From the NCBI GenBank assembly GCA_018830525.1, contig JAHJSH010000008.1, positions 1-53,722 on the forward strand: a DNA stretch of 53,722 nucleotides, in the 5' to 3' direction. The stretch comes from Nanobdellota archaeon (GTDB lineage Archaea; Nanobdellota; Nanobdellia; Pacearchaeales; GW2011-AR1). How positions within the stretch are numbered: position 1 is the first letter of the stretch; the number at the start of each line of letters is the position of its first letter. Made by a program: the position numbers and the translations under genes. The notes below the pieces were generated by a model. The model was not told where the DNA came from and did not search any database. It saw only the letters and a list, made by a program, of their open reading frames with translations. This document shows positions 6,482 through 14,114 of this stretch, piece by piece.

Positions 6482-6982
6482 ATGGAAGATATATTTGACC
6501 ACACAATTTTATGTAGCAAATGTAATAAAAAAATGAAACCGAGTCTTTTGACCAGAAATGGTTTTAATTTAAGGGCTATAAAATGTGAAGACTGCGGAAA
6601 ATCTCTAATTCATCCCGAAGATAAAAATGAATACGAAGAATTTATGAGATTAAAACAAAAAGAATATAATGTTAAAATGAGAATGGTTGGAAATTCCTAC
6701 GCAGTCTCTATCCCCCGAGAAATCGTAGATTTTATGCAAGACCAAGAGAATGTAATGAGTAACATGGTAAGATTATGTTTTGAAGAAGCTGGAAAAATCA
6801 GCCTAGATTTCGATTCAAACAACGAAGAACACAAATCACGAGTGGTAAGCTCTGAAGAAGTTCGAGTAGTAAAAAATGGAAAACCTGTTTATCATGTAAG
6901 AAAAGTTTCTGACTCAGCAAACCCCAAGAACAATCAAACAAGAATATTTAAAGCAAAAAAAGAAGAGGAAGAAGAATACTAA
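6482..6982 (+). CDS. Zinc-ribbon plus AbrB/SpoVT-like domain protein
   Basis: I start at 6482 (MEDIFDHTILCSKCNKKMK); a longer form from 6455 is possible. An N-terminal zinc ribbon has CSKC and CEDC pairs. The following segment, VKMRMVGNSYAVSIPREIVDF, is a swapped-hairpin AbrB-like motif. The tail is acidic (KKEEEEEY). The stop codon overlaps the ATG of cdc48 by one base (TAATG), so the two proteins are almost certainly made together. It may be a transcription regulator or a Cdc48 partner. The pairing is seen in the sequence; the functional link is inference. Confidence 0.75.
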   Translation: MEDIFDHTILCSKCNKKMKPSLLTRNGFNLRAIKCEDCGKSLIHPEDKNEYEEFMRLKQKEYNVKMRMVGNSYAVSIPREIVDFMQDQENVMSNMVRLCFEEAGKISLDFDSNNEEHKSRVVSSEEVRVVKNGKPVYHVRKVSDSANPKNNQTRIFKAKKEEEEEY

Positions 6983-9900
6983 TGGTAATTAAGAAAAAAG
7001 AAGAATCAAAAGGCGCAATCAAACTAAGAGTTGCTGAGGCAATGTCTGATGATGCTTATCGAGGAATTGTAAGGATCGATGAAGATTTGATGAGAGAATT
7101 TGGACTAGAGAGGGGAGATATTATTTCTATTAAGGGGACTAGAGAAACAAATGCTATTATTGATAAATCATATCCTGCAGATAGGGGGCAGGAAATTATT
7201 AGGATGGATGCAATTATCCGAAAGAATGCAAAAGCCGATATAGGAGAGTTAGTAATTATAAAACCTTCCCCAGAGTTAATAGAAGTAGAAGAAGTAACAA
7301 TTGTTCCTGCACAAAAAGGGATAAAAATTGAAATAAGGGGAAATCCAGATTCGATAAAAAATAGTCTTCTTGGGAGGGTCGTAAGAAAAGGGGATTTGTT
7401 GGTGCTTGGGGGGACAAGCAGGAGAAGAGATTTAATGTCAGACCCATTTGAAGATTTCCTAGGGGGAGGATTGGGAGAAATCTTTGGACAAATGGGTTTC
7501 GGATTTAATAATATGGGTGCATTTGGGGGGGGAGGAACCCAATTAAAGTTTTTAGTATCTGATACTTCCAAATCCGGGCCAGCAATAATTGGAGAAAATA
7601 CAAAAGTTAATTTTAAGGGAAATTATGAAGCTGATGTAGTAGAAAGTATTATGGAATCTGATGTAAAGAAAACTCTAGAAATTGCATATGAAGATATAGG
7701 TGGATTAAAAAATGAAATTGGAAAAATCAGAGAGATGGTAGAGATTCCTATGAAACATCCAGAAGTATTTGAAAGATTAGGAATTGAACCGCCAAAAGGA
7801 GTCTTACTTTATGGGCCTCCCGGAACTGGTAAAACCCTTTTAGCAAAGGCAGTTGCAGCTGAAACAGACGCACATTTTATTTTATTAAATGGTCCAGAAA
7901 TTATGTCTAAGTTTTACGGAGAATCAGAGAAAAAAATCCGAGAAATTTTCGACGAAGCAGAAAAGAATGCTCCGGCAATTATCTTCATTGATGAAATAGA
8001 TTCTATTGCTCCAAAAAGGGAAGATTCTGGAGGAGAAGTTGAAAGAAGAGTTGTTTCACAATTATTAACTATGATGGATGGACTTCAAGCACGAGGAAAA
8101 GTAGTTGTCATTGGAGCAACAAATCGTATTAATGTTCTAGACCCTGCACTAAGGAGACCTGGAAGATTCGATCGAGAGATAGAGGTTGGTGTTCCAGATA
8201 AGGAAGGCCGATTACAAATATTACAGATTCATCGTAGGAATATGCCCCTTTGTCATTGGGATTATTCAATTTGTGATATTAAATTAGATGAATATCTAGA
8301 TAAGATTCCTCTAGAAAATAAAGAAAAAATAATCGCTTCAGAAGATAAAATAAAAAAATTAAATCAAGAAAAAATTTCAAAAATAGATCTTATTAAAGGT
8401 CTAACTGAGAAATTTGAAACCTCTCAATCAGAAAAAGATTCCTTATCTCGAAAGCATTCTTCTCAAAAAAGGAAATTAATCCAGGCAATCAACGAATTAA
8501 ACTCCTTTAGGCAAGAGTCCGAAAATAAATGGACCGATAACCTTCTGATAAAACTAAGATTAAAACAAAATGAGGTATCTGAACAAAATTCTGCTATAAA
8601 GAAGCTTGAAGAAGATATAAATAAAACTATGAATTCCTTAAAAAAATCACAAAAAGAATTAGAATCTCTAGATGAAAAAATAGAACATATTTCTAATGAG
8701 AAAAAATCTCTAGATGAAAAAATAATCAAGTTAAAAGAGGATATCCTGACACTAAAAAAAGTAAAAAATAAAAGAGAAAGTTTTTCACCAGAAAGAAGAA
8801 AAGAACTTTCAGAAGCAATGCGAATAAAATCCCATAGATTGAATATCCTCGGGAAAAATGACCCCCGTGCGGAGATGATTGAAGATGCTAAACGAAAAGA
8901 TCAAATGGAATATTCTACACTCATCGAGGATCTCGAGAATGCCCTCGGTAAAAAAATATATGGACAATTTCAAAGGGATGTTAATGATAGTTCAGTTGAA
9001 GTTATGTTGGGAATTCTCGCAGGAAGAACACATGGTTTTGTAGGTGCGGATATTTCTGCACTGACTAAGGAAGCCGCTATGAATGTACTGAAGAGAAAAT
9101 TACCAAATCTTGAGGTTGATGAAGAAAAGATATCTGAGGAAAAGCTTAAAGATCTAATTATTACTGAAGAAGATTTTAATGCTTCTCTGAGAGTTGTAAA
9201 ACCTTCAGCAATGCGAGAAGTTTTGGTTGAAGCTCCTAATGTGGGTTGGGAAGACATTGGGGGGCTAAAAGAAATAAAGCAAGATCTCCAAGAAGCAGTT
9301 GAATGGCCCCTAAAACATCCAGATTCATTTACAAAAATGGGTATTAGACCTCCAAAAGGAATTCTTCTTTATGGACCTCCTGGAACCGGAAAAACCCTAT
9401 TAGCCAAAGCAGTAGCCAATGAATCCGAAGCAAACTTCATACAAATCAAGGGCCCTGAATTACTAAGTATGTGGGTTGGTAAATCCGAAGAAGGAGTCCG
9501 AAAGATTTTTGAAAAAGCTAGGCAAGTTTCACCTTGTATTATCTTCTTTGATGAAATAGATTCAATTGCGAATAGGAGGGGGGGAGGAATAGATGGTGGA
9601 TCGAGAGTAACAGAAAATGTTCTTAATCAACTATTAGCCGAGATGGATGGAATCGAAGATTTAACAAATGTAATTGTAATTGGAGCAACAAACCGTCCAG
9701 ATATCCTAGACCCTGCGTTAATGCGTCCCGGAAGATTTGATAGAATAGTCTATGTTCCAGTTCCAGAGAAGGATGGAAGACTCCAAATATTAAAAATTCA
9801 TACGGAGGGAATGCCACTTGCCGAATCTGTATCTCTAAATAAGTTAGCAGAAGAAACCGAAGGTTACACTGGAGCAGACATCGAATCTCTAGTAAGAGAA

Positions 9901-10110
9901 GCCGCAATGCTCGCGCTTCGAGAAGTTTGGGCAAATAATGAAGATATTGAAACAAAGAAAGTTACGAATAAACATTTAGAAAAAGCAATGGAAAAAGTCT
10001 TGCCTTCAGTCTCAAAGAATGATCAACAGAGATATAAATTAGTAGAATCCAAGTATCTTAGAAGTGCCAAAGCCGCATTGAATGATTCAAGTAGAACTTA
10101 TGCTGGATAG
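6982..10110 (+). CDS. cdc48: Cdc48/p97-type double AAA+ ATPase with a long coiled-coil insertion
   Basis: The N-domain (residues 1-145) is the double-psi barrel type. It is followed by an unusual glycine-rich segment (about 155-186). D1 has Walker A GPPGTGK (278-284), Walker B IIFIDEID (333-340) and arginine-finger region RRPGRFD. D2 has GPPGTGK (798-804) and IIFFDEID (853-860). Between IHRRNMPL (about 416-423) and [19 protein letters not shown] (from 680), about 255 residues rich in K, E, L and S are inserted into the D1 small helical subdomain; most of this is predicted coiled coil. Typical archaeal Cdc48 is about 730-810 residues, this one 1042. It should unfold ubiquitin-like-tagged or other proteins for the proteasome. 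No HbYX tail is present. Confidence 0.95.
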
Positions 10111-10228: not shown

Positions 10229-10240
10229 AACTTTTTATAG
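10229..10240 (+). promoter_or_regulatory. TATA-like promoter of the caspase-like module
   Basis: The sequence AACTTTTTATAG lies about 25 bases before the first ATG at 10261, the spacing expected for a leaderless archaeal transcript. It is the only clear promoter before the three overlapping genes, so they should form one transcript. Confidence 0.5.
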
Positions 10241-10260: not shown

Positions 10261-10449
10261 ATGGAAAAAGAAAGGGCTATATTTCTAAACGCATATGCAA
10301 ATGTACCGGAACCCCTTAGAAAAGATACTATCGTTTTGATCGAAAAAGAACCATACTCTTGGGAAACAGCATATTTTGAAATAAAAAAAGAAACAGAACT
10401 GGGCAAGAAGATTTTAAAAACTCTAAAACAGATGGAGATATTAGGATGA
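10261..10449 (+). CDS. Small helical protein, first gene of the caspase-like module
   Basis: This 62-residue protein contains the recognisable stretch AYANVPEPLRKDTIVLIE and then EPYSWETAYFEIKKETELG. I associate this pattern with small uncharacterised proteins found beside other small proteins in prokaryotic accessory loci, but I cannot name a described family. It has no signal peptide or membrane segment. Its stop overlaps the start of the next gene by 4 bases (ATGA). It may be an adaptor, inhibitor or sensor for the peptidase two genes downstream; that role is inferred only from the coupling. Confidence 0.65.
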   Translation: MEKERAIFLNAYANVPEPLRKDTIVLIEKEPYSWETAYFEIKKETELGKKILKTLKQMEILG

Positions 10450-10685
10450 GAGAAAAGAGATATTCCAAGGAAATAGAAGAGTTAGTTATCGCAAGGATAG
10501 AATCTCAACTACCTAATGAATTAAAACTTTTTGTAGGTAATGGACAGAGCTTTAGCAAGGCTCAAATGATAGAACACATAAAAGAAGGTGGTGTTATTGG
10601 CACTTCACTCGTTGATTCCCAAATGTCTTTTTTAAAAGCGGTGGCGAGTGGGGCTTTTATTAGTGCCATTAATACTGTTCAATGA
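10446..10685 (+). CDS. Small protein, second gene of the caspase-like module
   Basis: This 79-residue protein has a charged N-terminus (MREKRYSKEIEELVIARIES) and the segment NGQSFSKAQMIEHIKEGGVIG. A C-terminal helix (SQMSFLKAVASGAFISAI) completes it. No catalytic motif is visible. Start and stop each overlap the neighbouring gene by 4 bases, so its synthesis is tied to both the first small protein and the caspase-like protein. This makes a toxin-antitoxin or regulator-protease arrangement plausible. The function is unknown. Confidence 0.65.
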   Translation: MREKRYSKEIEELVIARIESQLPNELKLFVGNGQSFSKAQMIEHIKEGGVIGTSLVDSQMSFLKAVASGAFISAINTVQ

Positions 10686-11332
10686 AAAGAGGAATGATTA
10701 TTTCTTGTCCGGATTATGATGATGTTACCAAGGCTTTTTTAGATTTTTCTCAGGAGATTAAAGATCTAGCGAAACATAAATCTTTACTCTTGAAAGAGTT
10801 AAACGGGGAGAATGCCAATGCCATTGAATTTGGCAAGGTTCTTTCAAAATTAGATTATTCATTTGTTTGTATTAATGGGCATGGGGATGAGAAATCTGTT
10901 GCTGGAAATAAAAGTGAAATAATTCTTTCTGAAGAGATTAATCTAAAAGAATATGGTAAAAGAATTTGTTATTGCAGATCCTGCGAGAGCGGAAAAATAC
11001 TTGGAGCAAAGCTAACTGAAAACGGAGGATCATTTATTGGATACTCTCAACCCTTTGAGTTTTACATTGATGAGAAAAACATTGCGAACCCATTAAGGGA
11101 CAGAACAGCAAGTCTTTTTCTTAGTCCATCTAACATTATTCCAATGACTTTAATCAAAGGTAAAACTGTTAATGAAGCAAATGAAAGAGGAAAAATGGCA
11201 ATCTTAAAGAGTATAAAGAAAGTGATAAATGAAGAAAATGCAGACTTGATGATTGCAGTTGCTCTGTGGAAGAATTACAATAGCCAGATAGTTCATGGTA
11301 AAAAAGACATCACAATTTCTTCAGAGTTTTAA
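10682..11332 (+). CDS. Caspase/CHAT-like cysteine peptidase (clan CD)
   Basis: The 216-residue protein has the two catalytic sites of the caspase-haemoglobinase fold. H67 lies in FVCINGHGDE after a hydrophobic strand. C101 lies in CYCRSCESGKILGAKL, followed by GGSFIGYS. The His-to-Cys spacing (34 residues) and the SCESG box match CHAT-type peptidases. It is a single-domain protein with no fused sensor, so the two small co-translated proteins are the natural candidates for control. It should cut proteins inside the cell. Whether this is defence, regulated cell death or processing of a specific target cannot be told. Confidence 0.75.
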   Translation: MKRGMIISCPDYDDVTKAFLDFSQEIKDLAKHKSLLLKELNGENANAIEFGKVLSKLDYSFVCINGHGDEKSVAGNKSEIILSEEINLKEYGKRICYCRSCESGKILGAKLTENGGSFIGYSQPFEFYIDEKNIANPLRDRTASLFLSPSNIIPMTLIKGKTVNEANERGKMAILKSIKKVINEENADLMIAVALWKNYNSQIVHGKKDITISSEF

Positions 11333-11366: not shown

Positions 11367-12032
11367 ATGCGAATAGCAGATATGCCTAAACAGAATAGGC
11401 CTAGAGAAAGATTTCTTAAACATGGCCCAGAAGTCCTAAGCGACTCTGAACTTTTTGCAATTCTTCTAAGAATTGGGACAATTAATGAAAACGTCATTGA
11501 CATGTCCAATAGATTAATCAACGAACATGGAATAAACAAACTCTTCGACTGTTCTCTAAAAGAACTTCAACAAATAAAAGGAATCGGTCCCGCCAAAGCA
11601 ATGCAACTCCTAACTATAAACGAAATCAGCAAACGAAGAATCTCTTCACTTACTCAATCAAAAAAGATAACCTGTGCAGAAGACGTCTTCAATCACTTCC
11701 ACCAAAAACTCAAAGACAAAAAAGAAGAACATTTCTATATCCTAATGCTCAACACCCAGAACAATATCATCGGGGAACAACTAATATCTAAAGGAATCCT
11801 AGACGCCTCAATCATTCATCCAAGAGAAGTCTTTCGCCCCGCAATTCGAAACGCCTCCAGTAAAATAATCTTAGTCCATAATCATCCAAGTGGAGATCCG
11901 ACTCCAAGCAGTGAAGATTTAGATATAACTGAAAAGCTCACAAGTACTGGAGATGAGATTGGAATAAGCGTATTGGACAGTATTATTGTGGGTGATGGGA
12001 AGTGGTGGAATTGGAAGGAGAAAGGAGAATAG
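11367..12032 (+). CDS. radC: RadC-like JAB/MPN+ domain protein
   Basis: This full-length 221-residue RadC has an N-terminal helix-hairpin-helix region (KGIGPAKAMQLL, about residues 71-82). The JAMM metal site follows: E154 in HPREVF, then HNHPSGDPTPSSED (H171, H173, D184). Despite the name, a DNA-repair role for the family is not established, and it is frequently linked to mobile islands. The last 59 coding bases (11958-12016 plus the tail) recur as relics at 14613 and 17339. The C-terminal sequence now in use may have arrived with an inserted segment. Confidence 0.92.
   Translation: MRIADMPKQNRPRERFLKHGPEVLSDSELFAILLRIGTINENVIDMSNRLINEHGINKLFDCSLKELQQIKGIGPAKAMQLLTINEISKRRISSLTQSKKITCAEDVFNHFHQKLKDKKEEHFYILMLNTQNNIIGEQLISKGILDASIIHPREVFRPAIRNASSKIILVHNHPSGDPTPSSEDLDITEKLTSTGDEIGISVLDSIIVGDGKWWNWKEKGE
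11958..12016 (+). repeat. radC 3'-end repeat, copy 1 (functional)
   Basis: This is the in-gene copy of the repeated radC end. Bases 11985-12016 are identical to 14640-14671 (32 of 32). The preceding 27 bases differ at 7 positions, nearly all third codon positions, so the two copies come from diverged alleles of the same gene. Confidence 0.9.
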
Positions 12033-13217: not shown

Positions 13218-14114
13218 ATGTTTATGGTAGAAGAAAAAGAGCAGAACAAAGATACACACATAGCAATTTTTAATAAAAAGTCTATAAGAAGAAAAGTCGT
13301 AAATAATAAGTGGTTTTTTTCTGTTGTTGATGTTGTTGGGGCTTTGACTGAAAGTGAGAATCCTCGTAATTACTGGAATATGTTAAAATCTAGGGAAAAA
13401 GAATCATCGGGAATTGAGTTGTACACAATTTGTGTACAACTGAAATTAATGTCTGCAGACGGCAAAGAATACGAAACAGATTGTGCCGATACCGAAGGAA
13501 TTTTCAGAATAATCCAATCTATCCCATCTAAAAAAGCAGAACCTTTCAAAAGGTGGCTTGCAAGAGTTGGCTATGAAAGGGTGCAAGAGATAGAAAATCC
13601 AGAACTTGCTCAAGAAAGGATGAAGAAAATCTATGAACTAAAGGGATATTCTAAAGATTGGGTTGATAAAAGATTAAGAGGAATTTCAGTAAGACAAGAC
13701 TTAACAGATGAATGGAAAAAAAAGGGAATCGAAGAGGATATGGAATTTGCTATTTTAACTAATGAGATAAGCAAAGCTGCATTTGGAAAAACAGTTGAAG
13801 AATATAAAAAATTTAAAAATATTAATAAAGAAAATCTTAGAGACCATATGACTGATTTAGAACTAATCTTCTCTATGCTTGGAGAAGCTTCAACAGCAGA
13901 AATAGAAAGAGTTCAAAATCCTCAAGAATTTGATGAACACTTAGAAGTTTCAAAAAAAGGTGGCACAATTGCGAAAAATGCTAGACTTGAATTAGAAAAT
14001 GAAACAGGAGAAGATGTAATCCTTAGTGAAAATTATTTAACTCAAACAGAAAAAGAAGCTAAAGAAAAGAGAAGAAAGAAAAAAAGATTAGTAAAACATC
14101 CATTGTTAACTTAA
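13218..14114 (+). CDS. Bro-N domain, DinD-like antirepressor-type protein
   Basis: The N-terminal 110 residues form a Bro-N domain: IAIFNKKSIRRKVVNNKWFF, VVDVVGALTES, then RIIQSIPSKKAEPFKRWLA. The C-terminal part (ELKGYSKDWVDKRLRGI ... LRDHMTDLELIFSMLGEAS) matches the DinD/antirepressor group. In bacteria such proteins are DNA-damage induced or phage regulators. Here it is the longest gene of accessory segment I. The tail is basic (KEKRRKKKRLVKH). The start may be the ATG at 13218 or 13224; a TATA-like sequence (CTTTAAATTA) lies about 25 bases upstream. Confidence 0.85.
   Translation: MFMVEEKEQNKDTHIAIFNKKSIRRKVVNNKWFFSVVDVVGALTESENPRNYWNMLKSREKESSGIELYTICVQLKLMSADGKEYETDCADTEGIFRIIQSIPSKKAEPFKRWLARVGYERVQEIENPELAQERMKKIYELKGYSKDWVDKRLRGISVRQDLTDEWKKKGIEEDMEFAILTNEISKAAFGKTVEEYKKFKNINKENLRDHMTDLELIFSMLGEASTAEIERVQNPQEFDEHLEVSKKGGTIAKNARLELENETGEDVILSENYLTQTEKEAKEKRRKKKRLVKHPLLT

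Follow-up and report, generated by a model that had tools for sequence, protein, structure and literature searches.

A compact three-gene module of DPANN archaea encoding a predicted clan CD cysteine peptidase and two small partner proteins

Caspase-like enzymes of prokaryotes are known chiefly from bacteria, in most cases as larger proteins with several domains. A locus in the 963-kb draft genome of a Nanobdellota archaeon raises the question of how such an enzyme might be controlled when it is encoded as a short single chain behind two very small genes. We analysed a stretch of 53,722 nucleotides from this genome (contig JAHJSH010000008.1; hereafter, the window), in which three open reading frames follow one another on the + strand: gene 1 (10261..10449), encoding a small protein of 62 residues, the first partner; gene 2 (10446..10685), encoding a small protein of 79 residues, the middle partner; and gene 3 (10682..11332), encoding a predicted cysteine peptidase of 216 residues. 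A preliminary description had reported these sizes, overlaps of 4 bases, and a peptidase with H67 within NGHGDE and C101 within SCESG, all of which we confirmed in the sequence. Both junctions are ATGA overlaps (10446-10449 and 10682-10685), and the codons of the predicted catalytic residues, read in the frame that opens at 10682, lie on the same strand at 10880..10882 (His67) and 10982..10984 (Cys101).

The exact 4-base overlap is common, not universal: it was found at the first junction in 38 of 56 loci and at the second in 19 of 56, with most of the other junctions within a few bases of it. A TTTTTATA-type stretch at approximately 10231..10237 (+), some 25-30 nt before gene 1, is a probable TATA box. 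Among 56 loci, 33 had a TATA-like box 21-40 nt ahead of gene 1, compared with 5-9 in bins farther away, an enrichment that fits a promoter belonging to the module itself.

Sequence and predicted fold together identify the gene 3 product with confidence as a clan CD (caspase-type) cysteine peptidase. Its AlphaFold2 model, built from a nine-sequence alignment, reached a pLDDT of 90.3 and a pTM of 0.89. When this model was compared with the PDB by Foldseek, the SAVED-CHAT protease 8tl0 was the best match (E 2.5e-5), gingipain R followed at E 3.6e-5 (TMq 0.63), and SAVED-CHAT, gingipain R, legumain and caspase-4 were all returned at a probability of 1.00. In clan CD the catalytic dyad consists of a His and then a Cys, each at the C-terminal end of its strand, the two strands corresponding to caspase beta3 and beta4 (PMC4357240). 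The peptidase has this order and placement within a caspase-type alpha/beta fold, since H67 and C101 directly follow predicted strands 59-65 and 95-99. H67, G68, C101 and D140 were invariant in all 78 full-length relatives. The assignment to a caspase/CHAT-like peptidase was thus borne out by AlphaFold2 and Foldseek. Another acidic residue, D13, sits just before helix 1 and was kept in 75 of the 78; by analogy with MALT1 Asp365 and RgpB Asp163, helix 1 residues that bind the arginine at P1 (PMC4357240), it suggests cleavage after Arg or Lys. Because the confident model covers all 216 residues, the peptidase carries no fused sensor or repeat domain, in agreement with the preliminary description.

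None of the three module families reached a curated Pfam or NCBIfam cut-off or gave a convincing PADLOC or PHROGs match. In Pfam, the only match to the peptidase was Peptidase_C13 (E 0.024, 14.6 bits, below the cut-off of 22.8), and neither CHAT (PF12770) nor Peptidase_C14 was matched by any of 31 family members. Searches of the peptidase against NCBIfam, PADLOC, PHROGs and PDB sequences returned nothing useful; we rejected the PDB sequence-search matches as chance and the Pfam Dad4 and Peptidase_C13 matches as falling under their curated cut-offs. No PADLOC defence model was matched, at E values up to 10, by eight proteins taken from the window and from three further loci.

The module peptidase has the fold of the clan CD families (caspase C14, legumain C13, gingipain C25 and CHAT), with the dyad in the same order and likewise placed where two core strands end, but it passes no curated profile, its 216-residue chain lacks a prodomain, a sensor and a repeat domain, and it comes with two separate partners. 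Prokaryotic metacaspases and orthocaspases likewise have the His/Cys dyad and the caspase fold, whereas the module peptidase lacks a Peptidase_C14 match; a 2012 survey counted five archaeal metacaspases, in Euryarchaeota only (PMC3501461). The SAVED-CHAT and TPR-CHAT (Craspase) proteases, the former providing the best structural match, are also caspase-like proteases in small operons with partners (PMC10952713). The module differs from these in having no SAVED or TPR domain, no Cas7-11 and no constant CRISPR partner; type III-E Craspase combines TPR-CHAT with Cas7-11, whereas here the whole chain is peptidase and no Cas gene is a constant neighbour. Canu (CanABC) is, like the module, a compact three-gene operon, whose caspase-family protease is produced in complex with a partner (PMC12799240). 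It links the caspase to a gated nuclease, whereas the module has neither a nuclease nor an Ig-like domain, no nuclease was constant near 50 loci, and its partners are two small probable paralogues.

The preliminary description took joint occurrence of the three genes in other genomes as a test of the module, and this held. After removal of duplicates, gene 1, gene 2 and the peptidase gene were found together, in the same order and on the same strand, in all 89 distinct loci with readable flanks, the only exceptions being broken copies. Such linkage is far beyond chance. An independent search of a home-phylum sample with the gene 1 profile gave 45 strong places, 43 of them directly before a peptidase match; the two without an intact peptidase were decay products in one genome (G356). 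At one (L091:2081-2314) gene 1 is an orphan, and at the other (L092:6335-6730) a deletion has fused it to the C-terminal part of the peptidase without the active site. In one group of close relatives, dN/dS was about 0.04-0.08 for all three genes. Two further copies were broken. In locus L096 (1220-1543) gene 1 is truncated while the gene 2 and peptidase frames are open, which would mean that restraint does not require gene 1 in every case; it may be dispensable at this locus, unless the assembly is in error. A genome of the Omnitrophota phylum (G473, locus L136) holds a peptidase gene that has degenerated, with a stop in frame, and beside which no small partners could be recognised; this suggests loss of the module in that lineage.

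The two small proteins belong to new families and are probably related to each other. Neither family (33 members each) had a Pfam match above the cut-off, including any EAD or death-like domain, and gene 1 had no family in Pfam, NCBIfam, PADLOC or PHROGs. The gene 2 protein was modelled from 33 sequences at a pLDDT of 88.8, with helices predicted at 8-21, 38-47, 50-68 and 70-76 and a hairpin at 27-37; no PDB fold resembled it (best E 1.6). Comparison of the gene 1 and gene 2 profiles gave a P value of 1.7e-4 with 33 sequences each and, with 89 each, an E value of 1.7e-5 (score 27.3, probability 78%) over 39 columns that comprise the hairpin and the next two helices. As this score is far above the maximum from 60 column-shuffled profiles (14.2) and that from a reversed profile (13.2), the two proteins are probably paralogues. 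The likely paralogy, and a middle protein with no PDB fold match, are new here. A nucleotidyltransferase-like protein of 223-224 aa (L093:834-1505 and L094:577-1251) also matched the gene 1 profile; the match is short and confined to the core motif, and we took it as chance or very remote similarity rather than a fusion. Nor did we count covariation between gene 2 and the peptidase as evidence of coupling: mutual information placed 21 such pairs in the top 50, compared with a mean of 12.6 and a maximum of 22 in tree simulations, which is not beyond chance, and no top score was unusual.

Surveys of other genomes showed that the module is patchy. Naming phyla by the record titles of the seed loci, we found the peptidase in 47 of 371 genomes of the home phylum, Nanobdellota (two weak), 20 of 196 of the phylum of the Micrarchaeota locus (one weak) and 18 of 156 of that of the Aenigmatarchaeota locus, as well as in 6 of 237 genomes of Omnitrophota, which are bacteria. 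The module is therefore present in about 10-13% of the sampled genomes of the three archaeal groups and in a few Omnitrophota. Titles of matching loci also include Woesearchaeota, Pacearchaeota and Nanoarchaeota. A survey of closer kin found the peptidase in 9 of 90 genomes, one of them a chance match, and a scan of GTDB contigs found 20 loci; one candidate (L009) was discarded as a chance match inside an open frame of 825 aa. The module did not occur in 15 other genomes of the same genus, which are incomplete, and some genomes carried two or three copies.

The peptidase tree mixes phyla, with 13 label changes where the minimum is 3 and random labels give 26; together with the patchy distribution, this indicates that the module is mobile and moves horizontally. 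Four Omnitrophota peptidases form one clade (100/100) within a larger supported group that is otherwise archaeal, the bootstrap support being not fully settled, which is consistent with transfer from archaea to bacteria. A bacterial host for these copies is credible, although the genomes are MAGs: the two contigs titled Omnitrophota match each other at 97-99.6% along much of one of them (L053), and L052 additionally has a Bro-N-type gene among other non-core genes. Neither tblastn against phages and plasmids nor two scans of viral contigs returned a module match.

The neighbours of the module, across loci, were housekeeping genes, nucleotidyltransferase/HEPN pairs, Bro-N, Cas1, Cas4 and integrases, and no constant fourth gene emerged among the neighbours of 50 loci. 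Genes for nucleotidyltransferase, HEPN and Bro-N proteins had about 3 times the density in the flanks that they had in control windows, a comparison biased by the fact that the seeds were taken from the flanks. The flanks matched 182 PADLOC models and the controls 172, no large excess. The defence role suggested in the preliminary description thus gains mild support from the flank gene content, which points to a mobile, defence-type setting, and none from the PADLOC count.

How, then, might the peptidase be controlled, and to what end? Our preferred reading, held tentatively and at somewhat less than even weight, is that the three genes form a conflict module of DPANN archaea that is self-contained and moves horizontally, and in which small partners restrain the peptidase. 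The clan CD protease would be made with no prodomain or sensor, and both small partners would be translated just ahead of it from one message. Most likely they would bind the peptidase and either keep it inactive or gate the active site, doing in trans what a prodomain or inhibitory segment does within other clan CD enzymes. Infection or another stress would remove or alter a small partner and release the protease, which would cleave cellular or viral proteins until growth stops or the cell dies; the population might be protected, or the module kept in place (defence or addiction). We infer trans inhibitors or gates because the module has no other regulatory domain, and the inhibitor role draws support from clan CD itself, whose members are commonly inhibited by their own prodomains or loops (PMC4357240). 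It is plausible that the peptidase is under the control of the small proteins. The clan CD fold and dyad, the linkage, the patchiness, the mixing of phyla on the tree, multiple copies, decay, the module's own TATA-like box, the denser nucleotidyltransferase, HEPN and Bro-N genes in the flanks and the Cas1, Cas4 and integrase neighbours all speak for a conflict module; against it stand the truncated gene 1 in L096, covariation within chance, the PADLOC counts, and the lack of a viral, phage or plasmid match.

We place the module among the caspase-like conflict systems of prokaryotes, a class already known. That it represents an undescribed class of caspase-like death or defence switch, with a minimal clan CD protease and two paralogous trans restrainers of 60-80 residues and of new fold, present in about a tenth of DPANN genomes and transferred to Omnitrophota, is a bolder proposal that we consider possible but doubtful. 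The open-licence literature yielded no earlier description of the three-gene module or of one with two such small partners, as the preliminary description had supposed. A 2026 survey of archaeal immunity, in which neither caspases nor proteases are mentioned, reports that DPANN have few CRISPR and restriction systems and are enriched in compact systems (PMC12988326). If the restraint reading is true, a compact three-gene version across DPANN archaea would equip these reduced symbionts with a regulated protease and would show how little suffices to control a caspase-type enzyme. The module defines three protein families absent from the libraries searched and, at about 1.1 kb with no fused sensor, would be easily testable in a heterologous host.

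The main rival, which we consider unlikely, assigns the small proteins the opposite role: one or both would be substrates or pro-effectors, and the peptidase, once some signal had activated it, would cleave the first or middle protein to free an active fragment. Its models are Craspase, which cleaves Csx30, and Canu, whose caspase activates its nuclease; in bacteria, caspase-like defence enzymes are often encoded in one operon with a dedicated substrate (PMC10952713, PMC12799240), and the linkage seen here is strict enough for an enzyme-substrate pair. However, each small protein is a short single domain in which no effector domain can be recognised, a pair of paralogous substrates would be out of the ordinary, and both small genes precede the enzyme, which is usual for restraining partners.

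Toxin-antitoxin systems have a small antitoxin gene beside the toxin gene, usually upstream and cotranscribed. The module resembles them in its layout, and in layout only, as two small genes lie directly upstream of the peptidase in all 89 loci; short overlaps, mobility, decay, several copies per genome and toxin-antitoxin-like genes nearby add to the likeness. A pure addiction element, with a protease toxin and small antitoxins serving only their own maintenance and no defence role, is nevertheless a reading to which we give little weight. The module has a protease where such systems have their usual toxins, no DNA-binding antitoxin domain was recognised in its two probable paralogues, gene 1 was found as an orphan only once, and neither plasmids nor phages gave a match.

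A housekeeping regulatory or protein-quality protease linked to Cdc48 is highly improbable. This idea goes back to the preliminary description, which drew it from the position of the module beside cdc48 (6982-10110 in the window, product 1042 aa), and the strong purifying selection would suit it. The module, however, is patchy even inside the genus, and the Cdc48 orthologues of 13 genomes of the same genus and one of the same family are followed by other, differing genes, never by the module; the cdc48 neighbour is thus incidental, and with module neighbours also varying across the 50 loci the protein-quality role was not upheld. Equally improbable is an effector delivered by a symbiont into a host or competitor: the archaeal carriers are DPANN, cultivated members of which are described as ectosymbionts of archaea (PMC11291902), but the peptidase begins with its first core strand, leaving no space for a signal peptide, no secretion genes recur near the 50 loci, and the module is present in Omnitrophota too.

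Two observations concern the surroundings of the module. The Cdc48 homologue of the window contains a coiled-coil-like insert of about 240 residues (8230-8952) in the C-terminal part of its first AAA domain; the orthologues in the related genomes searched are about 770 aa long and lack the insert, with only one weak match in 40. On the other side, a radC gene directly follows the module (11367-12032) with a Bro-N-type gene nearby (13218-14114), an arrangement also present at locus L099. A minority of loci show the RadC/Bro-N pairing again, and it has the appearance of an accessory region held in common.
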